From Mucor racemosus (Eukaryota; Mucoromycota; Mucoromycetes; Mucorales; Mucoraceae), in the NCBI GenBank assembly GCA_027405735.1, contig JAPEHQ010000013.1:1797909-1861908 (forward strand): 64,000 nucleotides of DNA. The letters are read 5' to 3'. Under the pieces are notes generated by a model. It made no database searches. It had not been told where the DNA came from and was given only the letters and a program-made list of their open reading frames with translations. Below, one piece after another: positions 48,536-64,000 of the stretch. The translations under genes were made by a program, and so were the position numbers. Position 1 is the stretch's first letter; every line of letters begins with the position of its first letter.

Positions 48536-49670
48536 ATTTAATATTAATACCCTTACTTTTATTATATACATTTACATTTTATTTTTATATAAAAAACTCT
48601 TAATTTCGAAATTATCAATTAAAAGACGCAAAAAATATTTGGCATATGCGTAAATGTGTGCTGATTTCCAAAATTCCAGTGAGTCATATATACAACGTTG
48701 AAACAAATACTTTGAGCATGTAAATCCCATCTTTACAAAGGTTTTTACAGTTTGTATGTCATGTATCATACATAAAATGTACACAAATGAATGCTTGGAA
48801 CTACAAATACAATTTTTTTATTTTACAATTAACATGAAAATTACGAGTATTAGCATAAATAAGCTTCTAGAGTTATCTGCCTTGGTTCTTGGCACTATAT
48901 TCTGCATTTATTGCTATACAAATAATGTAGGCTAGACATTTATTTAAAAAACCAAATGCATAAGAGAAAATATAGCTGGAAACACAGTTTTCACTCAATC
49001 AGTGCATATAAGATCCTTCTACAAACTACAAGGTAAACTCATTCTATGAAATACAACATTATTGTGTAGATTAGGATTGAAAGTATCCATAATTCATAAA
49101 CAAAGTGTCATTGAATACTTTAGTTGTGCAGCAGTGTGTAACTGAATGTCGCCGTTTCACCAAATGTCGCATAAATCAACAATTGAAAGAGCGTATTTCA
49201 GTGGTTTTTGGCACTTTCGAGCATTGTAAAGCATACCAAATTATTGCTATTGTTCAACAGAGTCGATGTGTTGCACTTATTTTGAATTTTGGAGCACTTA
49301 AATTTCCTCTCATTTTCCATGAGGTATACCTCATGAAAATCGGCATTTTAGACATTTTTCAATTTTTGACCCCAAAAATGGGACTTTTTACTAAGATATT
49401 AATCGCGATGAAATAATTGTATCAACCAACTACATGATATAAGCTAGTCTATTTGCAGATTTCATATTCAAGAATTTGACTTTTCTTTCAAAAACCATCA
49501 AAGCTATTTTTGCAATTACCAAGAAACTTTGTGAGAAAAACTAAAAATTAAAAAATATATCCAGATTCATCACCAAACATAACAGAAAATTTGTTAGGAA
49601 CATAAAAGTTGTTTTATATAAGATTTTGGGACAAAAAATTCTTTGAATGTTATAATTGTTTAAAATCGCT
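48536..49670. other. Intergenic; includes an 18-bp perfect palindrome
   Basis: No supported gene. The 103-codon frame at 49105 is probably chance. At 49318-49335 lies CATGAGGTATACCTCATG, a perfect palindrome. The last bases before the tandem array read TTTAAAATCGCT. Confidence 0.5.
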
Positions 49671-49700
49671 GGCTCCGTGGCCATAACTGGGGTTTGATCC
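49671..49700 (+). repeat. Copy 1 left terminal inverted repeat
   Basis: GGCTCCGTGGCCATAACTGG followed by GGTTTGATCC. It pairs with 54693-54726 on the other strand; shared core GGCTC, GCCATARCTGGGGT, ATCC. The same ends recur at 54733 and 59795. Confidence 0.7.
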
Positions 49701-49714
49701 GACTAGATTTTTTT

Positions 49715-49745
49715 TTTTTCAGGAGGGCGAAGCCTTCCTGAAAAA
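49715..49745. other. Subterminal hairpin
   Basis: TTTTTCAGGAGGGC-GAA-GCCTTCCTGAAAAA: a 14-bp stem with one G.T pair and a 3-nt loop, 44 bp from the element end, embedded in T and A runs. It lies about 280 bp past the gene's stop codon on the minus strand, so it could act on DNA ends or in the 3' transcript. Repeated at +5062 and +10124. Confidence 0.7.
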
Positions 49746-50023
49746 GAAAAAATTCGGTAAAATGTGCATTAATTAATGAAAATATGTCATTTCGATTAAA
49801 AAATACTAAACACATTAAATCCTAGCTTAAATGTATCTATATTTCCAAGTTATTGTATATATATACATTAGATTAAGATCAAATTTGTGTAAATTGAAGA
49901 ATGAAAAAAAGCAGGTTTATGAGACATTGGATTGTTTTATTGAATCTGTAGTCGATAATTTCAGTTTAATGACTTGAGTTAGTGGTGATAATGAGTAATA
50001 ACTTGGATAAAAAATTTATAAAT

Positions 50024-53000
50024 CTAAGGCGAGTAATGCTTGCAGTTTTTTATATGTTGTTTTCCTGGACATTTATACATGTTTTCAGGATCAATTGCTT
50101 TACATCTGGTACACCTTCTTGTTCTAGGTTTTTTTACAGAATTAATATCAGTTGTCAAAAGTACAGGACCTGCAATGAGTTGAGAGTGATCAGGCTGTAA
50201 AGGATCATCAGATTTTCTCTTGTTTGAAGTTAGTGGAGCAAATGAGAGACTACCTCGAAGAGGTGATGGGAGAATAGCAGGAGGAAAAGATGCAGCTGGT
50301 CTTTTTGAAGAATCAACTGCGTTCTTAACTTTTTTGATCATCTCTGCATTTTGAGGGATCTTGACACAGTCTTTGTAGGTATTGTTACTTTGATACTTAT
50401 TGAAAAAAGATTCAAGAATCTCGGGTATCTTATAAAACACTACTGGCTGCTGATTTTCTTTGAGTTTTCCATTAGTGTGATTGCAGCGTTTACACCATTC
50501 TTGAGCCATTTCCATGAAATCGGGGTTGGTCTTTTCATGCATTTTCAGATCATTGTATATGTTCCAAAACAGTATTCTCTCTTCATCTGTATGTACAGGT
50601 ACAATAGCATACTTCACATTCTGGCAGCTTGCAAGATATTGATACTGGGATAAATTTAATTTCGAGGCTTTAATCAATGGTAATGCAGAGAGCTGCAAAA
50701 CTTGGGTAACCAAGGAATAACTACTAGAATCAACATCACTAGCAATGCCATCATCAGAAACATCTTCAGTATCAGTAGGCTTGTTTGAAGGCGCATCTTC
50801 GTTCTTTGCAGAGTCAGATTCGTTGAATGGCAACATGTTGAAATATGCTCTTGCAACGTCTGATATAGGACAAATACCGAAAGTTTCACCTTTTGGATCA
50901 AAATGGATAGCATTACCATCAGGATCATGGTAAGATCCTTGTACTGTAAGACCGAGTTCACTTTTTAAATGGTTGATGCCATGAGTTAGCCAAGGATTGT
51001 AATGACCAGTATGCTTTATATTGTATCGATTCAAAGAACCAACCTTGAAGAAAATATTTAGTAACAAGCTCTTTCATTTAACTTATAATATACTTACATC
51101 AGTATTATGTCGAAGCCTATAATCGGCTAATAGACAATTTGTCAATCTAGGGGAAGCATTATACATCGAGAATTTCCTTATAATATTGGTGTGAACACCA
51201 CCCTCCAAACTATTGGTTCCTCTGACACAGCGATAGACTGGGAGACCGAACTCATCAATTCTTCTTGTATAATATAAAGGTACACCAACAGGATCCGAAA
51301 TATGGCCTTTACTGATTGCATCGAGAATCTTGGCAGCTTGAGATTGACATTGTTTGTCGAACAGTTTTAGACCAGTCTTGAGATCCAATGAATTACCATA
51401 ATGGCTAAAGAGAGCTGCAACAACCGGATAAAGTTGCTTTGGAGGAGGAATTGTGCGTCTAATCCGTTTGGAAATCCAGCTAGGCCTTGCTTTTACCATA
51501 CGGTCCCAGGTTATCTGGTTGCGTTTTAAGGCTTCGGTAACCCGTTTCTTGTCTTCTTCATTCACGAGAAACAAAGCATCTCGAAAACGAGCCATAAACT
51601 CCTTGTGCATTCCATGCTTCTCCGAAACCGAGATGAAATCCATTAGGTGAAAAGCGTCTTTAAGCACCAAAGTTGGAATAGTAGCAGCCTCATCAGCTTG
51701 TAAAGGAGTTTCATCTTCAATATCACTTCTGGCTGTACGCAAACAGCGGGTATCGACGTTAATAATCAGGAACTCATCCTTAATAGCCTCAAAGGTTATT
51801 CTATTTCTATCGGAACTTCTGTTATCGTGGCTACAAATTGGTGCAAGAGCTCTATACTTGAAGACATTCAAGACCTTCACCGGCAAACATTTACTACAAC
51901 CTTCGGCTCTTTCAACAACCTTTCCAACGGCTAATTGGCGACCTCTACATGTATTTGACGTAGCATATAGGTTGACATACGTGTTAATAGATACAGGTTT
52001 CTTAATAATACAATTAAGTTGTGGCAAAGCATCCATTGCGGCATTCAAATGTAAAGCTACATACGCATCATTTGCAGCATATTCTCTTTGCTCCTTGGTA
52101 AGATCGGAGGACTCCCAATCACCGCATCTTATTCCAACTGGCTTTGGTAAGTACTTTCCAAAAATGTCTTGACAGAGACTTTGTAATGAGCACCCCTTCA
52201 ATTTGTCCACGTAGCCTAACTCCAAATACTTGCTGCTTAATTCAATAAAAGCAAATGTATCATAGCTAGCTTTAGAAATTGCATAATCTCGGGACAGCTT
52301 CATAAGATCTTGCTTGACAGAACGTCCAATCTTTACAACATCATTACATTCAAGCAGAGTTTTGAGGTGTCTTGGTAAGTGAGCTCTTTTCTTCAAATGG
52401 AATAAGTAAACATTGTCTTGATGCGCAATTTGTATTAAAGAAACCTTCTGAACGATTGTTTTAGTTCTAATCAGATTAACATTCCATTCGCAGTCGAAGC
52501 CAATGTAAACTGGAATAACTTCGCCGGTATTGGGGTCTGTTTGCAAATAATCAAGAATTCTTGACGCCATTAAATCCATCTGTTTGCCTGCTGAAAGATA
52601 TAAAACTGTGACATTATCAGGGACCTTATAATGAGGGAGATTGGGATTTCCTTCTATTTCACTATTTGTGTGGACAACATTTTTTGTCAATGAAGGTATC
52701 CATTTTTCCAAAGATTGCTGATCACCAACGACATTATCAGTGTAAAACACCTTTGGCTCGGGTTGTTGGTTTGCAAGGTATGTCTTCATCATCTGAGCAA
52801 AGCTTTCTTCTAATTGGGGAAGTGATTTAGTTGATGCTAAGACCATCATGCGAATTTCTTCAAATTCATTGCACAACGTATACAAAGCAGTAAAGATAGA
52901 GACACCATTTAATTGTGCGATTTGCTTGATTATCTTAAAAGTATGATCTCCTTTTAGTATAATACCACCAAGCTTCATCATCTCAGAATCAACACGGTCC

Positions 53001-54208
53001 TTGATATTATCCATGTAGCTAGTATACACATATCCAATATAAGAAGCCGAAGGAACACTACCGTTGTAACCTTTTTTATCATGGAATTCAGAAAACTCGG
53101 CTGCCTTCCCATTCCCAAAGGAGTTATTTGACTTATGCGAATAAGCTGCAGCAAGATATTGATACTGGAGTTTATCGTATCTTAAATGATGCATTTCTTG
53201 AAGGGTTTTGTGCAGACGTCCTGGACCAACTGAATTTTGCATCAATGGACGTAATAGGTCAACTAACATTATTGAAATACCAGATTTGTGAGTTAAAAGA
53301 GCCGGGAAATCACTTTGTACATGGTAAGGAAGCTGTCGGATGACTTCACTGTCGTAACCTGTATAACTATGCTTCGTATTTTTGGAACATACATAGCGAG
53401 AAGACATCATATAAAATGAGCTAAAATAAGTAGTTTAATTATAAAGTTGTCATAGATAAAAATATTATTACTTACTCGTTGACATCAATAATACGGCGAG
53501 CATTTTCCAAAAAGCCTTTAACATTTAGATTACTATCACATTTAGGACAAGAAAGTTTTGATTCACCCGGCATTAAATATTGAGGAAACCACAAAAACAA
53601 GCGAGGCATGTATAACACATCCGGCCTTGGCCATCCTTGATTATGGTACACATTAAGATTAAAGCTAGGACTACCTTGAGATACCCAGAAAGTCTTTCCT
53701 TCAGTGTATTCGGAAGGCGCTTTACCACGATTTGGGCCCTTTCGCAATCTATCAAGAACCTTCTTCGTTAAAATGTCCACTGGACTATCTTCTATGATTT
53801 GAAGAAACTCTTCTTCTTCTTTATGGATAGTAGACATATTGATAGGAAGAGTATCTTGATCTTCATCATCGTCATCATCGTCATCATCAGCGTCTAAACC
53901 GTCGTCTAAAGGCACAAAGGTAGCATTGAGATTCTGGTTTGCGATTACATTTGCCTATGTTTACATATTGTGAAAATATTAGAACGCTGCTTAACATTAA
54001 TGATAGCAACTTTTAAGATTACCTCAGAATTAGAGTTTTCGGCTAATAGAATCGAGTCAGAACTTGATGTCTCGTTTGATGGAGAACTACTTTGATTGTT
54101 TGATTCGGTCATGAAAAATGAGTTCAATATCTTTTGAGATGGGTCTATTATCTTTTTGTTTCTAGAACCATTTTTTCGGCCACGACCAATATTGTTAGAC
54201 TTAGTCAT
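50024..54208 (-). CDS. DDE transposase-like protein with inserted 3'-5' exonuclease, copy 1
   Basis: Four exons, 54208-54023, 53954-53476, 53420-51098 and 51043-50024, join in frame to 1335 aa. A basic N-terminus and an Asp-rich run (about 79-97) lead to a zinc-binding region (CPKC near 200, YVCSKNTKHSY) resembling DUF6729. A transposase-like core follows: D380 in LKGDHTFKIIKQIAQLNG, D450 in VFYTDNVVGDQQSLEKWIPS, and E961 in RGTNSLEGGVHTNIIRKF. Between D450 and E961 sits a DEDDy 3'-5' exonuclease domain: D531/E533 in IGFDCEWN, D593 in IGRSVKQDL, Y669/D673 in YAANDAYV, then LKDAFHLMDFI. The C-terminus has CTRCKAIDPENMYKCPG, a zinc-knuckle-like motif. The ATG at 54208 is the first one; the frame extends upstream only through TTG. 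The DUF6729 name and DDE assignment are from memory of family patterns, unsearched. Confidence 0.82.
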
Positions 54209-54524
54209 TTTTTGAATCAATTAGAATAAGAAATCTAAGATAATGAAGCACAACTCGAAGGTTTTATTATGACAGATTTTACATATTTATATATTTTTAT
54301 TAACTCTCAGGGGTTAAGATTGCGATTAATTGACATTTCAAGGTCAAGCAGGGTTATTAAGACCCCTTCATTTTAATAATAAGATTAATTTTTAACTTAT
54401 TGGGGTTTAATGTATGATTATTGTTATTTGGCTATGAAACTTCTCAACAAGATTCACTTGTTTTATCATTTTTTCTGTAGATTGTTGGATATTATCTGTT
54501 GAAATCAGGCACATTTTGTACATT

Positions 54525-54676
54525 TAAACTCAAAATGATATTTTTAAACTCAAAAACTAATATTTGAAGCTCAATAACTAATATTTCAATCTCAATAACT
54601 AGAATTAAAACCCAATAACTAGAATTCGAAGCAATTTTATTGGCTTACAAATAAATTCAAACCCAATAACTAGATT
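54525..54676. repeat. Subterminal degenerate ~20-bp repeats
   Basis: About six units of the type AAACTCAAAAACTAATATTT, AGCTCAATAACTAATATTTC, TCTCAATAACTAGAATTAAA and AACCCAATAACTAGAATTCG lie 50-200 bp inside the right terminus, upstream of the gene. Clustered subterminal repeats of this kind bind transposase in several DNA-transposon families. Copies recur at +5062. Confidence 0.65.
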
Positions 54677-54692
54677 ATCCGACCACTTGATT

Positions 54693-54726
54693 GGATAAAA
54701 CACACCCCAGCTATGGCTTGAGAGCC
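54693..54726 (-). repeat. Copy 1 right terminal inverted repeat
   Basis: GGATAAAACACACCCCAGCT followed by ATGGCTTGAGAGCC; inverted partner of 49671-49700 with a few mismatches and a 4-bp length difference. It is followed by AAATCG and then the next unit's GGCTCC. Confidence 0.7.
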
Positions 54727-54732
54727 AAATCG

Positions 54733-57700
54733 GGCTCCGTGGCCATAACTGGGGTTTGATCCGACTAGATTTTTTTTTTTTCAGGAGGGCGAAGCCTTCC
54801 TGAAAAAGAAAAAATTCGGTAAAATGTGCATTAATTAATGAAAATATGTCATTTCGATTAAAAAATACTAAACACATTAAATCCTAGCTTAAATGTATCT
54901 ATATTTCCAAGTTATTGTATATATATACATTAGATTAAGATCAAATTTGTGTAAATTGAAGAATGAAAAAAAGCAGGTTTATGAGACATTGGATTGTTTT
55001 ATTGAATCTGTAGTCGATAATTTCAGTTTAATGACTTGAGTTAGTGGTGATAATGAGTAATAACTTGGATAAAAAATTTATAAATCTAAGGCGAGTAATG
55101 CTTGCAGTTTTTTATATGTTGTTTTCCTGGACATTTATACATGTTTTCAGGATCAATTGCTTTACATCTGGTACACCTTCTTGTTCTAGGTTTTTTTACA
55201 GAATTAATATCAGTTGTCAAAAGTACAGGACCTGCAATGAGTTGAGAGTGATCAGGCTGTAAAGGATCATCAGATTTTCTCTTGTTTGAAGTTAGTGGAG
55301 CAAATGAGAGACTACCTCGAAGAGGTGATGGGAGAATAGCAGGAGGAAAAGATGCAGCTGGTCTTTTTGAAGAATCAACTGCGTTCTTAACTTTTTTGAT
55401 CATCTCTGCATTTTGAGGGATCTTGACACAGTCTTTGTAGGTATTGTTACTTTGATACTTATTGAAAAAAGATTCAAGAATCTCGGGTATCTTATAAAAC
55501 ACTACTGGCTGCTGATTTTCTTTGAGTTTTCCATTAGTGTGATTGCAGCGTTTACACCATTCTTGAGCCATTTCCATGAAATCGGGGTTGGTCTTTTCAT
55601 GCATTTTCAGATCATTGTATATGTTCCAAAACAGTATTCTCTCTTCATCTGTATGTACAGGTACAATAGCATACTTCACATTCTGGCAGCTTGCAAGATA
55701 TTGATACTGGGATAAATTTAATTTCGAGGCTTTAATCAATGGTAATGCAGAGAGCTGCAAAACTTGGGTAACCAAGGAATAACTACTAGAATCAACATCA
55801 CTAGCAATGCCATCATCAGAAACATCTTCAGTATCAGTAGGCTTGTTTGAAGGCGCATCTTCGTTCTTTGCAGAGTCAGATTCGTTGAATGGCAACATGT
55901 TGAAATATGCTCTTGCAACGTCTGATATAGGACAAATACCGAAAGTTTCACCTTTTGGATCAAAATGGATAGCATTACCATCAGGATCATGGTAAGATCC
56001 TTGTACTGTAAGACCGAGTTCACTTTTTAAATGGTTGATGCCATGAGTTAGCCAAGGATTGTAATGACCAGTATGCTTTATATTGTATCGATTCAAAGAA
56101 CCAACCTTGAAGAAAATATTTAGTAACAAGCTCTTTCATTTAACTTATAATATACTTACATCAGTATTATGTCGAAGCCTATAATCGGCTAATAGACAAT
56201 TTGTCAATCTAGGGGAAGCATTATACATCGAGAATTTCCTTATAATATTGGTGTGAACACCACCCTCCAAACTATTGGTTCCTCTGACACAGCGATAGAC
56301 TGGGAGACCGAACTCATCAATTCTTCTTGTATAATATAAAGGTACACCAACAGGATCCGAAATATGGCCTTTACTGATTGCATCGAGAATCTTGGCAGCT
56401 TGAGATTGACATTGTTTGTCGAACAGTTTTAGACCAGTCTTGAGATCCAATGAATTACCATAATGGCTAAAGAGAGCTGCAACAACCGGATAAAGTTGCT
56501 TTGGAGGAGGAATTGTGCGTCTAATCCGTTTGGAAATCCAGCTAGGCCTTGCTTTTACCATACGGTCCCAGGTTATCTGGTTGCGTTTTAAGGCTTCGGT
56601 AACCCGTTTCTTGTCTTCTTCATTCACGAGAAACAAAGCATCTCGAAAACGAGCCATAAACTCCTTGTGCATTCCATGCTTCTCCGAAACCGAGATGAAA
56701 TCCATTAGGTGAAAAGCGTCTTTAAGCACCAAAGTTGGAATAGTAGCAGCCTCATCAGCTTGTAAAGGAGTTTCATCTTCAATATCACTTCTGGCTGTAC
56801 GCAAACAGCGGGTATCGACGTTAATAATCAGGAACTCATCCTTAATAGCCTCAAAGGTTATTCTATTTCTATCGGAACTTCTGTTATCGTGGCTACAAAT
56901 TGGTGCAAGAGCTCTATACTTGAAGACATTCAAGACCTTCACCGGCAAACATTTACTACAACCTTCGGCTCTTTCAACAACCTTTCCAACGGCTAATTGG
57001 CGACCTCTACATGTATTTGACGTAGCATATAGGTTGACATACGTGTTAATAGATACAGGTTTCTTAATAATACAATTAAGTTGTGGCAAAGCATCCATTG
57101 CGGCATTCAAATGTAAAGCTACATACGCATCATTTGCAGCATATTCTCTTTGCTCCTTGGTAAGATCGGAGGACTCCCAATCACCGCATCTTATTCCAAC
57201 TGGCTTTGGTAAGTACTTTCCAAAAATGTCTTGACAGAGACTTTGTAATGAGCACCCCTTCAATTTGTCCACGTAGCCTAACTCCAAATACTTGCTGCTT
57301 AATTCAATAAAAGCAAATGTATCATAGCTAGCTTTAGAAATTGCATAATCTCGGGACAGCTTCATAAGATCTTGCTTGACAGAACGTCCAATCTTTACAA
57401 CATCATTACATTCAAGCAGAGTTTTGAGGTGTCTTGGTAAGTGAGCTCTTTTCTTCAAATGGAATAAGTAAACATTGTCTTGATGCGCAATTTGTATTAA
57501 AGAAACCTTCTGAACGATTGTTTTAGTTCTAATCAGATTAACATTCCATTCGCAGTCGAAGCCAATGTAAACTGGAATAACTTCGCCGGTATTGGGGTCT
57601 GTTTGCAAATAATCAAGAATTCTTGACGCCATTAAATCCATCTGTTTGCCTGCTGAAAGATATAAAACTGTGACATTATCAGGGACCTTATAATGAGGGA

Positions 57701-59788
57701 GATTGGGATTTCCTTCTATTTCACTATTTGTGTGGACAACATTTTTTGTCAATGAAGGTATCCATTTTTCCAAAGATTGCTGATCACCAACGACATTATC
57801 AGTGTAAAACACCTTTGGCTCGGGTTGTTGGTTTGCAAGGTATGTCTTCATCATCTGAGCAAAGCTTTCTTCTAATTGGGGAAGTGATTTAGTTGATGCT
57901 AAGACCATCATGCGAATTTCTTCAAATTCATTGCACAACGTATACAAAGCAGTAAAGATAGAGACACCATTTAATTGTGCGATTTGCTTGATTATCTTAA
58001 AAGTATGATCTCCTTTTAGTATAATACCACCAAGCTTCATCATCTCAGAATCAACACGGTCCTTGATATTATCCATGTAGCTAGTATACACATATCCAAT
58101 ATAAGAAGCCGAAGGAACACTACCGTTGTAACCTTTTTTATCATGGAATTCAGAAAACTCGGCTGCCTTCCCATTCCCAAAGGAGTTATTTGACTTATGC
58201 GAATAAGCTGCAGCAAGATATTGATACTGGAGTTTATCGTATCTTAAATGATGCATTTCTTGAAGGGTTTTGTGCAGACGTCCTGGACCAACTGAATTTT
58301 GCATCAATGGACGTAATAGGTCAACTAACATTATTGAAATACCAGATTTGTGAGTTAAAAGAGCCGGGAAATCACTTTGTACATGGTAAGGAAGCTGTCG
58401 GATGACTTCACTGTCGTAACCTGTATAACTATGCTTCGTATTTTTGGAACATACATAGCGAGAAGACATCATATAAAATGAGCTAAAATAAGTAGTTTAA
58501 TTATAAAGTTGTCATAGATAAAAATATTATTACTTACTCGTTGACATCAATAATACGGCGAGCATTTTCCAAAAAGCCTTTAACATTTAGATTACTATCA
58601 CATTTAGGACAAGAAAGTTTTGATTCACCCGGCATTAAATATTGAGGAAACCACAAAAACAAGCGAGGCATGTATAACACATCCGGCCTTGGCCATCCTT
58701 GATTATGGTACACATTAAGATTAAAGCTAGGACTACCTTGAGATACCCAGAAAGTCTTTCCTTCAGTGTATTCGGAAGGCGCTTTACCACGATTTGGGCC
58801 CTTTCGCAATCTATCAAGAACCTTCTTCGTTAAAATGTCCACTGGACTATCTTCTATGATTTGAAGAAACTCTTCTTCTTCTTTATGGATAGTAGACATA
58901 TTGATAGGAAGAGTATCTTGATCTTCATCATCGTCATCATCGTCATCATCAGCGTCTAAACCGTCGTCTAAAGGCACAAAGGTAGCATTGAGATTCTGGT
59001 TTGCGATTACATTTGCCTATGTTTACATATTGTGAAAATATTAGAACGCTGCTTAACATTAATGATAGCAACTTTTAAGATTACCTCAGAATTAGAGTTT
59101 TCGGCTAATAGAATCGAGTCAGAACTTGATGTCTCGTTTGATGGAGAACTACTTTGATTGTTTGATTCGGTCATGAAAAATGAGTTCAATATCTTTTGAG
59201 ATGGGTCTATTATCTTTTTGTTTCTAGAACCATTTTTTCGGCCACGACCAATATTGTTAGACTTAGTCATTTTTTGAATCAATTAGAATAAGAAATCTAA
59301 GATAATGAAGCACAACTCGAAGGTTTTATTATGACAGATTTTACATATTTATATATTTTTATTAACTCTCAGGGGTTAAGATTGCGATTAATTGACATTT
59401 CAAGGTCAAGCAGGGTTATTAAGACCCCTTCATTTTAATAATAAGATTAATTTTTAACTTATTGGGGTTTAATGTATGATTATTGTTATTTGGCTATGAA
59501 ACTTCTCAACAAGATTCACTTGTTTTATCATTTTTTCTGTAGATTGTTGGATATTATCTGTTGAAATCAGGCACATTTTGTACATTTAAACTCAAAATGA
59601 TATTTTTAAACTCAAAAACTAATATTTGAAGCTCAATAACTAATATTTCAATCTCAATAACTAGAATTAAAACCCAATAACTAGAATTCGAAGCAATTTT
59701 ATTGGCTTACAAATAAATTCAAACCCAATAACTAGATTATCCGACCACTTGATTGGATAAAACACACCCCAGCTATGGCTTGAGAGCC
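54733..59788 (-). mobile_element. Tandem TIR element, copy 2
   Basis: Exact period of 5062 bp from copy 1. All predicted frames (347, 775, 147 and 91 codons) recur at +5062 with the same translation, and I saw no base differences in the parts compared. It includes the hairpin (54777-54807) and subterminal repeats (59587-59738). Confidence 0.85.
55086..59270 (-). CDS. DDE transposase-like protein with inserted 3'-5' exonuclease, copy 2
   Basis: Exons 59270-59085, 59016-58538, 58482-56160 and 56105-55086, the same 1335-aa product as copy 1. All candidate catalytic residues (D380, D450, E961 and the DEDDy set) are kept. It is intact, so this copy and copy 1 could both be expressed. Upstream, the 460 bp to the element end hold the likely promoter. 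Confidence 0.82.
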
Positions 59789-59794
59789 AAATCG

Positions 59795-62700
59795 GGCTCC
59801 GTGGCCATAACTGGGGTTTGATCCGACTAGATTTTTTTTTTTTCAGGAGGGCGAAGCCTTCCTGAAAAAGAAAAAATTCGGTAAAATGTGCATTAATTAA
59901 TGAAAATATGTCATTTCGATTAAAAAATACTAAACACATTAAATCCTAGCTTAAATGTATCTATATTTCCAAGTTATTGTATATATATACATTAGATTAA
60001 GATCAAATTTGTGTAAATTGAAGAATGAAAAAAAGCAGGTTTATGAGACATTGGATTGTTTTATTGAATCTGTAGTCGATAATTTCAGTTTAATGACTTG
60101 AGTTAGTGGTGATAATGAGTAATAACTTGGATAAAAAATTTATAAATCTAAGGCGAGTAATGCTTGCAGTTTTTTATATGTTGTTTTCCTGGACATTTAT
60201 ACATGTTTTCAGGATCAATTGCTTTACATCTGGTACACCTTCTTGTTCTAGGTTTTTTTACAGAATTAATATCAGTTGTCAAAAGTACAGGACCTGCAAT
60301 GAGTTGAGAGTGATCAGGCTGTAAAGGATCATCAGATTTTCTCTTGTTTGAAGTTAGTGGAGCAAATGAGAGACTACCTCGAAGAGGTGATGGGAGAATA
60401 GCAGGAGGAAAAGATGCAGCTGGTCTTTTTGAAGAATCAACTGCGTTCTTAACTTTTTTGATCATCTCTGCATTTTGAGGGATCTTGACACAGTCTTTGT
60501 AGGTATTGTTACTTTGATACTTATTGAAAAAAGATTCAAGAATCTCGGGTATCTTATAAAACACTACTGGCTGCTGATTTTCTTTGAGTTTTCCATTAGT
60601 GTGATTGCAGCGTTTACACCATTCTTGAGCCATTTCCATGAAATCGGGGTTGGTCTTTTCATGCATTTTCAGATCATTGTATATGTTCCAAAACAGTATT
60701 CTCTCTTCATCTGTATGTACAGGTACAATAGCATACTTCACATTCTGGCAGCTTGCAAGATATTGATACTGGGATAAATTTAATTTCGAGGCTTTAATCA
60801 ATGGTAATGCAGAGAGCTGCAAAACTTGGGTAACCAAGGAATAACTACTAGAATCAACATCACTAGCAATGCCATCATCAGAAACATCTTCAGTATCAGT
60901 AGGCTTGTTTGAAGGCGCATCTTCGTTCTTTGCAGAGTCAGATTCGTTGAATGGCAACATGTTGAAATATGCTCTTGCAACGTCTGATATAGGACAAATA
61001 CCGAAAGTTTCACCTTTTGGATCAAAATGGATAGCATTACCATCAGGATCATGGTAAGATCCTTGTACTGTAAGACCGAGTTCACTTTTTAAATGGTTGA
61101 TGCCATGAGTTAGCCAAGGATTGTAATGACCAGTATGCTTTATATTGTATCGATTCAAAGAACCAACCTTGAAGAAAATATTTAGTAACAAGCTCTTTCA
61201 TTTAACTTATAATATACTTACATCAGTATTATGTCGAAGCCTATAATCGGCTAATAGACAATTTGTCAATCTAGGGGAAGCATTATACATCGAGAATTTC
61301 CTTATAATATTGGTGTGAACACCACCCTCCAAACTATTGGTTCCTCTGACACAGCGATAGACTGGGAGACCGAACTCATCAATTCTTCTTGTATAATATA
61401 AAGGTACACCAACAGGATCCGAAATATGGCCTTTACTGATTGCATCGAGAATCTTGGCAGCTTGAGATTGACATTGTTTGTCGAACAGTTTTAGACCAGT
61501 CTTGAGATCCAATGAATTACCATAATGGCTAAAGAGAGCTGCAACAACCGGATAAAGTTGCTTTGGAGGAGGAATTGTGCGTCTAATCCGTTTGGAAATC
61601 CAGCTAGGCCTTGCTTTTACCATACGGTCCCAGGTTATCTGGTTGCGTTTTAAGGCTTCGGTAACCCGTTTCTTGTCTTCTTCATTCACGAGAAACAAAG
61701 CATCTCGAAAACGAGCCATAAACTCCTTGTGCATTCCATGCTTCTCCGAAACCGAGATGAAATCCATTAGGTGAAAAGCGTCTTTAAGCACCAAAGTTGG
61801 AATAGTAGCAGCCTCATCAGCTTGTAAAGGAGTTTCATCTTCAATATCACTTCTGGCTGTACGCAAACAGCGGGTATCGACGTTAATAATCAGGAACTCA
61901 TCCTTAATAGCCTCAAAGGTTATTCTATTTCTATCGGAACTTCTGTTATCGTGGCTACAAATTGGTGCAAGAGCTCTATACTTGAAGACATTCAAGACCT
62001 TCACCGGCAAACATTTACTACAACCTTCGGCTCTTTCAACAACCTTTCCAACGGCTAATTGGCGACCTCTACATGTATTTGACGTAGCATATAGGTTGAC
62101 ATACGTGTTAATAGATACAGGTTTCTTAATAATACAATTAAGTTGTGGCAAAGCATCCATTGCGGCATTCAAATGTAAAGCTACATACGCATCATTTGCA
62201 GCATATTCTCTTTGCTCCTTGGTAAGATCGGAGGACTCCCAATCACCGCATCTTATTCCAACTGGCTTTGGTAAGTACTTTCCAAAAATGTCTTGACAGA
62301 GACTTTGTAATGAGCACCCCTTCAATTTGTCCACGTAGCCTAACTCCAAATACTTGCTGCTTAATTCAATAAAAGCAAATGTATCATAGCTAGCTTTAGA
62401 AATTGCATAATCTCGGGACAGCTTCATAAGATCTTGCTTGACAGAACGTCCAATCTTTACAACATCATTACATTCAAGCAGAGTTTTGAGGTGTCTTGGT
62501 AAGTGAGCTCTTTTCTTCAAATGGAATAAGTAAACATTGTCTTGATGCGCAATTTGTATTAAAGAAACCTTCTGAACGATTGTTTTAGTTCTAATCAGAT
62601 TAACATTCCATTCGCAGTCGAAGCCAATGTAAACTGGAATAACTTCGCCGGTATTGGGGTCTGTTTGCAAATAATCAAGAATTCTTGACGCCATTAAATC

Positions 62701-64000
62701 CATCTGTTTGCCTGCTGAAAGATATAAAACTGTGACATTATCAGGGACCTTATAATGAGGGAGATTGGGATTTCCTTCTATTTCACTATTTGTGTGGACA
62801 ACATTTTTTGTCAATGAAGGTATCCATTTTTCCAAAGATTGCTGATCACCAACGACATTATCAGTGTAAAACACCTTTGGCTCGGGTTGTTGGTTTGCAA
62901 GGTATGTCTTCATCATCTGAGCAAAGCTTTCTTCTAATTGGGGAAGTGATTTAGTTGATGCTAAGACCATCATGCGAATTTCTTCAAATTCATTGCACAA
63001 CGTATACAAAGCAGTAAAGATAGAGACACCATTTAATTGTGCGATTTGCTTGATTATCTTAAAAGTATGATCTCCTTTTAGTATAATACCACCAAGCTTC
63101 ATCATCTCAGAATCAACACGGTCCTTGATATTATCCATGTAGCTAGTATACACATATCCAATATAAGAAGCCGAAGGAACACTACCGTTGTAACCTTTTT
63201 ATCATGGAATTCAGAAAACTCGGCTGCCTTCCCATTCCCAAAGGAGTTATTTGACTTATGCGAATAAGCTGCAGCAAGATATTGATACTGGAGTTTATCG
63301 TATCTTAAATGATGCATTTCTTGAAGGGTTTTGTGCAGACGTCCTGGACCAACTGAATTTTGCATCAATGGACGTAATAGGTCAACTAACATTATTGAAA
63401 TACCAGATTTGTGAGTTAAAAGAGCCGGGAAATCACTTTGTACATGGTAAGGAAGCTGTCGGATGACTTCACTGTCGTAACCTGTATAACTATGCTTCGT
63501 ATTTTTGGAACATACATAGCGAGAAGACATCATATAAAATGAGCTAAAATAAGTAGTTTAATTATAAAGTTGTCATAGATAAAAATATTATTACTTACTC
63601 GTTGACATCAATAATACGGCGAGCATTTTCCAAAAAGCCTTTAACATTTAGATTACTATCACATTTAGGACAAGAAAGTTTTGATTCACCCGGCATTAAA
63701 TATTGAGGAACCACACAAAAACAAGCGAGGCATGTATAACACATCCGGCCTTGGCCATCCTTGATTATGGTACACATTAAGATTAAAGCTAGGACTACCT
63801 TGAGATACCCAGAAAGTCTTTCCTTCAGTGTATTCGGAAGGCGCTTTACCACGATTTGGGCCCTTTCGCAATCTATCAAGAACCTTCTTCGTTAAAATGT
63901 CCACTGGACTATCTTCTATGATTTGAAGAAACTCTTCTTCTTCTTATGGATAGTAGACATATTGATAGGAAGAGTATCTTGATCTTCATCATCGTCATCA
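59795..64000 (-). mobile_element. Tandem TIR element, copy 3 (cut by window end)
   Basis: Third unit, starting 5062 bp after copy 2. It follows copies 1 and 2 until about 63195, then shows four small indels before the window ends inside exon 2 of its gene. The right terminus lies outside the window. Confidence 0.85.
60148..64000 (-). pseudogene. Transposase/exonuclease gene copy 3, partial with frameshifts
   Basis: Corresponds to exon 4 (61167-60148), exon 3 (about 63543-61222) and most of exon 2 of the other copies. One T is missing in a T run at 63196-63200, which splits exon 3. One A is lost and a CA gained at about 63710-63716, and one T is missing at about 63945. The 3' two-thirds, including both the exonuclease and the transposase-like residues, remains open (a 648-codon frame). 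The changes are all in short homopolymer or dinucleotide runs near the window end, so they may be sequencing errors and not true decay. Confidence 0.75.

Follow-up and report, generated by a model that had tools for sequence, protein, structure and literature searches.

Fixed six-base-pair junctions in a Dada-like transposon family of Mucor racemosus are consistent with copy-out/paste-in movement by an exonuclease-bearing DDE transposase

How does a DNA transposon move when its transposase carries an exonuclease inside the catalytic core? The question is raised by a 64,000-nucleotide stretch of the fungus Mucor racemosus (assembly GCA_027405735.1, contig JAPEHQ010000013.1, positions 1,797,909 to 1,861,908 of the forward strand), referred to here as the window. 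A gene on its minus strand (50024..54208) encodes a 1335-residue protein. An earlier, sequence-only reading took this protein for a DDE transposase whose second and third catalytic acids are separated by a complete DEDDy exonuclease, belonging to an element with inverted termini, and proposed a transposition route with built-in trimming of DNA ends. The architecture and the mobile element were confirmed, but the trimming found no support and the architecture turned out to be known already. The new evidence presented here lies in the junctions between tandem copies, which contain linkers of fixed length derived from flanking DNA. From these genomic products, movement by IS256-like copy-out/paste-in through circles appears to be the probable route.

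The window contains two complete copies of the element and a third that is cut at the contig end, arranged head to tail on the minus strand. The first copy (49671..54726) is 5056 base pairs (bp) long, its ends having been set by comparison with other copies, and the second (54733..59788) is identical to it. They are joined by the 6-bp linker CGATTT (54727..54732), and the same linker (59789..59794) joins the second copy to the third (59795..64000). At the 3' end of the array stands the 8-bp target duplication AGCGATTT (49663..49670, minus-strand reading), whose partner is found on contig C26. The third copy is one base short inside; this deficit near the contig end breaks its frame (60094-63196) and may be a sequencing error. 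The inverted termini claimed earlier are present, as sequence comparison showed, and are imperfect: both the 3' end (49671..49706, minus strand) and the 5' end (54686..54726, minus strand) open with GGCTC.

A search of the 53.2-Mb assembly with exon 3 of the gene listed 66 matching pieces. Full 5056-bp copies were found at 16 loci (L001-L016, the window's two included), with 0-2 differences apiece when compared with the first window copy, although some of those on contigs C13, C26 and C39 may belong to one and the same array. Besides this family (family 1), the genome holds a second that is about 61% identical to it (5113 bp, ends set from three copies) and a third that is about 38% identical (5352 bp, six copies). 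The homologues are thus multi-copy and have inverted ends, rather than being single-copy host genes without them, and a domesticated single-copy gene was ruled out by the copy number. The element is probably a fungal DNA transposon that resembles Dada and was active recently.

Junctions were searched for in families 1 and 3 of the three, with 0-30 bp allowed between the 3' end of one copy and the 5' end of the next. Six were found in family 1 and one in family 3, and the linker was 6 bp long in all seven. In each of three arrays, the linker is identical to the final six bases of an 8-bp duplication from the same family. The array on contig C12 (flanks AAAAATTT, linker AAATTT) and the array on C13 and C26 that includes the window (flanks AGCGATTT, linker CGATTT) have linkers that match their local duplication. 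The dimer at C1:1.60 Mb (flanks CTTTATAT, linker TTGCTA) does not match its own flanks but the duplication CCTTGCTA of a single copy about 39 kb away (C1:1560037-1565389). This single copy differs from the dimer's first copy at 2 of 5352 bases and from its second at none of the 3253 bases compared. With a position model built on the remaining duplications, linkers like these have chances of roughly 0.01, 0.0045 and, per site, 7e-6. Every one of the three arrays joins the 3' end to 5' flank, the same side each time.

The two flanks of the C13/C26 array were read from two contigs, and contig C39 carries versions of both. C39 (L035, L036; 19.8 kb, three copies) joins the C26 flank to an error-rich window flank and was not treated as an array of its own. 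Its right flank is that of C26 (99.8%), while its left flank matches the window at 93.9% with 34 gaps and a stray 5' element piece. Its 3' junction reads CGATTTTAA, compared with AGCGATTTTAA in the window.

Insertion creates a target duplication of 8 bp. An exact 8-bp duplication flanks 17 of 18 sites of untruncated copies from the three families, and the target 8-mer occurs a single time in each of eight related repeats that lack the element. Several elements sit in high-copy repeats; the repeat that hosts one family-3 copy (C1:4200307-4215345) is itself an array with 2117-bp spacing. No Rfam match was found in 18 loci (at least one flank of 14 of the 18 sites, most flanks 85-209 bp), and no transfer RNA (tRNA) in 21 loci (17 of the 18 sites, most flanks tested 85-209 bp).

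The gene has four exons (54208-54023, 53954-53476, 53420-51098 and 51043-50024), with splice sites read from the genomic sequence rather than from transcripts, and joining them yields exactly 1335 residues. The catalytic acids D380 (GDHTF, codon 52946..52948), D450 (YTDN, 52736..52738) and E961 (TNSLEGG, 51203..51205), all on the minus strand, lie where the earlier reading had placed them. A DxxH motif (D810-H813, 51647..51658, minus strand) was located by alignment and by comparison with a published description (PMC3942029). The two aspartates, DxxH and the glutamate (exon-3 D163, D233, D593xxH596 and E744) are invariant in a 14-row alignment. By its predicted fold, the core is an RNase H-type, IS256/MULE-like transposase (MULE, Mutator-like element) with an all-helical insertion domain that starts at DxxH, in line with the RNase H-type core that the sequence-only reading expected. 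Its best structural match is ISCth4, a member of the IS256 family. Among the top 50 Foldseek matches of the exon-3 model were only DEDD exonucleases and polymerases carrying such a domain. A classical MULE was rejected, since the PF10551 profile had no match in the genome.

Three protein searches returned named relatives of the core from Mucorales only (Helicostylum, Mucor, Parasitella, Circinella, Thamnidium, Apophysomyces and Blakeslea), plus unnamed metagenome proteins. Thirty stretches of viral contigs matched a pattern, and none encodes a relative. One alignment used 13 of the 37 proteins of the first relative search. A second used 35 of the 44 from two such searches and omitted P0028, P0034 and P0035 as well as P0036, P0037 and P0041-P0044, which have the exonuclease only. 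In P0036, P0037, P0041, P0042 and P0043 the Pfam match is confined to the exonuclease; P0043 adds a weak match to an unrelated family.

In bacterial copy-out/paste-in, the attack by one end of the element falls a few bases beyond the other end, and a circle is then set free by replication (PMC7780238). Prokaryotic relatives have 6-10-bp spacers taken from one flank (PMC3942029). We infer the same pathway here because the junctions resemble those of bacterial copy-out and because the core, independently of the junctions, matches ISCth4 best. The enzyme would cut the 3' end of the element, and this end would attack that same strand at a point six nucleotides beyond the 5' end. Replication would then free a circle in which 6 bp of donor flank link the two ends, and the donor copy would stay in place. 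The circle would insert elsewhere with the 8-bp duplication seen at the insertion sites. A circle that recombines with a resident copy, or a multimer that inserts, may give rise to an array. If so, copy-out/paste-in would account for the tandem arrays and the growth in copy number of the family, and junctions of this fixed, flank-derived kind would bring a bacterial copy-out pathway into eukaryotes.

Several points weigh against this account. The seven junctions fall in only three independent arrays, and the circle is deduced from genomic products. The probability that a random 6-mer resembling the target duplications equals the end of some family-1 duplication is 0.19, and the copy at C19:181682 (CCAAATTT) agrees with the C12 linker as well. 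One insertion site (C1:6.87 Mb) has a 7-bp duplication. In IS3 and IS256 elements, the spacer is typically as long as the duplication (PMC9587614), compared with 6 and 8 bp here, and eukaryotic DNA transposons largely move by cut-and-paste (PMC7780238). The structure comparison re-aligned a Foldseek list and was not an independent search. The helix of the third acid is modelled weakly (mean predicted local distance difference test score of the block about 60 in exon 3 and about 40 in P0051). Finally, no curated transposase profile matched exon 3, its two halves or the exonuclease-free cores, and no sequence profile tied the core to IS256 or MULE.

Cut-and-paste could yield the junctions if excision were staggered and carried 6 nt of the 5'-side flank, and if host repair closed some excised elements into circles or dimers that later recombined with residents or inserted beside them. 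There are precedents: circles capable of reinsertion are known from hAT elements, which belong to the same structural group (PMC2803484), and Muta1, a MULE, excises in yeast (PMC5225508). The circles of Hermes, however, are variable, with 3 perfect joins in 60 and 26 in which 1 bp to 1 kb separates the ends (PMC2803484), whereas the junctions here are exactly 6 bp in seven of seven cases and from the same side in all three arrays. Staggered excision at both ends should also produce joins with the other flank or with both. We therefore regard cut-and-paste as unlikely.

A second alternative is the built-in trimming proposed at the outset, in which the exonuclease is essential and either trims an 8-bp flank down to the 6 bp of the linker or acts on cut ends. 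The WRN-like DEDDy domain itself is well defined. It covers exon-3 residues 265-473 (52016..52642, minus strand) in the Pfam match and the predicted fold, matches DNA_pol_A_exo1 with an E-value of 2.6e-15, and has the expected residues D531 and E533 (FDCEW), D593 (KQDLM) and Y669 and D673 (EYAANDA) at their predicted places. Authors of the Dada study suggest that such a domain processes cleaved 3' ends (PMC3706591). Two kinds of conservation also favor an essential role. The domain keeps a fixed place between the second aspartate and DxxH, just ahead of DxxH, across the aligned rows. Exon-3 D314, E316, Y452 and D456 are all kept in 29 of 36 rows; five of the others are gapped and two, P0027 and P0038, are changed. 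The tally covers these four residues; the fourth exonuclease acid, exon-3 D376, is missing from P0005 in the 14-row alignment.

The 6-bp junctions nevertheless need no exonuclease, because ISCth4, with about 400 residues, makes the same spacers and the portions of its description consulted mention no such domain (PMC7780238). P0027, a metagenome relative, has changed active residues in the exonuclease while both catalytic aspartates are kept. Divergence is also more rapid in the exonuclease than in the catalytic parts. When families 1 and 2 are compared, 0.25 of the codons in the exonuclease differ at their second position, against 0.12 between the two aspartates and 0.13 around the glutamate. 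Two Apophysomyces proteins appear to lack the domain in public gene models, in which it could have been skipped as an intron; the P0050 model, for instance, skips part of the third exonuclease motif. In a 25-row tree with a midpoint root, both group with the exonuclease-bearing P0003 and P0014 (support 99 and 98). Loss is therefore the likelier course, and if the gene models are right, the exonuclease was probably lost in these two proteins. An exonuclease-less form as the ancestor was rejected on the same grouping.

Taken together, an essential trimming role is improbable. The exonuclease is most likely an accessory of the enzyme, and our guess, from its position next to the part that handles flanking DNA, is that it processes the 3' end left free in the donor's flanking DNA. 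The insertion domain of ISCth4 contacts flanking DNA (PMC7780238). Since relatives without the exonuclease seem to exist, its role becomes testable.

Ordinary tandems, formed by nested or adjacent insertions, by unequal crossing-over between duplications or by misassembly, are very improbable. In their favor, the window array runs up to the end of its contig, and C39 is of poor quality and partly chimeric. The dimers on C12 and C1, however, sit far from the ends of long contigs, the C1 linker matches the flank of another copy and not its own, and none of the three arrays fits the equal 8-mers around one copy that a nested insertion would leave or the 8 bp that crossing-over would leave.

In all three families, the longest perfect hairpin of the roughly 5-kb element is found near the end that is joined, at 31-87 nt from the 3' terminus (in the first window copy at 49715..49745, minus strand, by hairpin search). 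Its arms are 10, 22 and 13 bp long in families 1, 2 and 3, lengths reached by 11, 0 and 0 of 200 shuffles. No hairpin with arms of at least 7 bp was found in the first 150 nt of the elements of these families. The family-1 and family-2 hairpins appear to be related; the family-3 hairpin resembles neither. Near the 5' end, three repeats of about 21 nt with the motif CTAGTTATTG were seen (54583-54674 and 59645-59736), and family 2 has a repeated GTTATTGGG there. These 5' repeats are possible binding sites of the transposase. Just beyond the array lies a gene for a NIPA-type magnesium transporter (PF05653; 46579-48535, plus strand).

Dada is among the closest known systems, and the comparison with it was made by its published description. 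The Dada elements of Laccaria bicolor and Ectocarpus siliculosus have a DEDDy exonuclease between the second aspartate and DxxH, as published in 2013 (PMC3706591), and the architecture is thus already known. The elements here share with Dada the DDE triad with DxxH, the position of the exonuclease, introns, a similar size range and tandem copies, and the spacing of the first two aspartates is 70 residues, compared with 68 in Dada-U6_DR (PMC3706591). Cysteines of zinc-finger type at both termini may be similarly spaced: Dada has CCCC and CCHC forms (PMC3706591), and the window protein has C198-x2-C201, C233 and, in fourth place, H239 at its N terminus and C1307-x2-C1310-x10-C1321-x8-C1330 at its C terminus. 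The relative P0050 has the full N-terminal CCCC. A pattern scan of five relatives, several of them partial, found the C-terminal form in two and the N-terminal form in one. Differences are that the elements here have inverted ends, while Dada-U6 and Dada-U1 are described as having no terminal inverted repeats; that their duplications are 8 bp at unrelated sites, compared with 6-7 bp in Dada; and that no small-RNA gene was found at the tested sites, while Dada elements with definable ends target small nuclear RNA or tRNA genes (all in the parts of PMC3706591 consulted). Because the duplication length and the small-RNA targets are two described features of Dada that differ here, we call the elements Dada-like and do not file them as members.

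Dada-U1 has apparent 8-bp flanks (CTGCGAAT), which its authors did not rule out, and tandem copies separated by GCGAAT; a 6-bp duplication was concluded (PMC3706591). This 8-to-6 relation appears to be the same as in M. racemosus, where unrelated sites show 8 bp. Against such a reading, the Dada-U1 tandem pair consists of two different families, and two insertions with a 6-bp duplication would fit at least as well. The text of PMC3706591 contains none of the strings 'circular', 'replicat' and 'excision', and no proposal of copy-out/paste-in for Dada was among the matches listed from the open-licence literature. There is perhaps an even chance that Dada-like elements in general are eukaryotic DDE transposons using IS256-style copy-out/paste-in, in which a fixed end, marked by the subterminal hairpin, would attack six nucleotides outside the other and circles would multiply the element. 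In that case, some 6-bp spacings between tandem Dada copies may be circle junctions with a true duplication of 8 bp.

ISCth4 has spacers of 6-8 bp, of which those of 6 bp serve insertion best, and its 8-bp duplications are A/T-rich (PMC7780238). It therefore shares with the elements here the A/T-rich 8-bp duplication, the 6-bp spacer from one donor flank and a C/DxxH motif, in addition to the best structural match of the core, and an IS256 paper cited in PMC7780238 mentions tandem dimers in its title. ISCth4 differs in being bacterial and about 400 residues long, with an exonuclease absent from the consulted description, and in having no sequence similarity to the window protein detectable here. 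Either of its ends can act as donor (5 and 3 of 8; PMC7780238), compared with the same end in three of three arrays here. KolobokD and KolobokP are likewise eukaryotic DDE transposons (PMC9587614). KolobokD encodes a DEDD exonuclease, of the DEDDh type (TREX/ERI1-like) rather than the DEDDy type found here. KolobokP forms multimers and leaves excision footprints that have been likened to IS3/IS256 (PMC9587614); its multimers share long terminal direct repeats, whereas the copies in M. racemosus are joined by a 6-bp linker derived from the flank.
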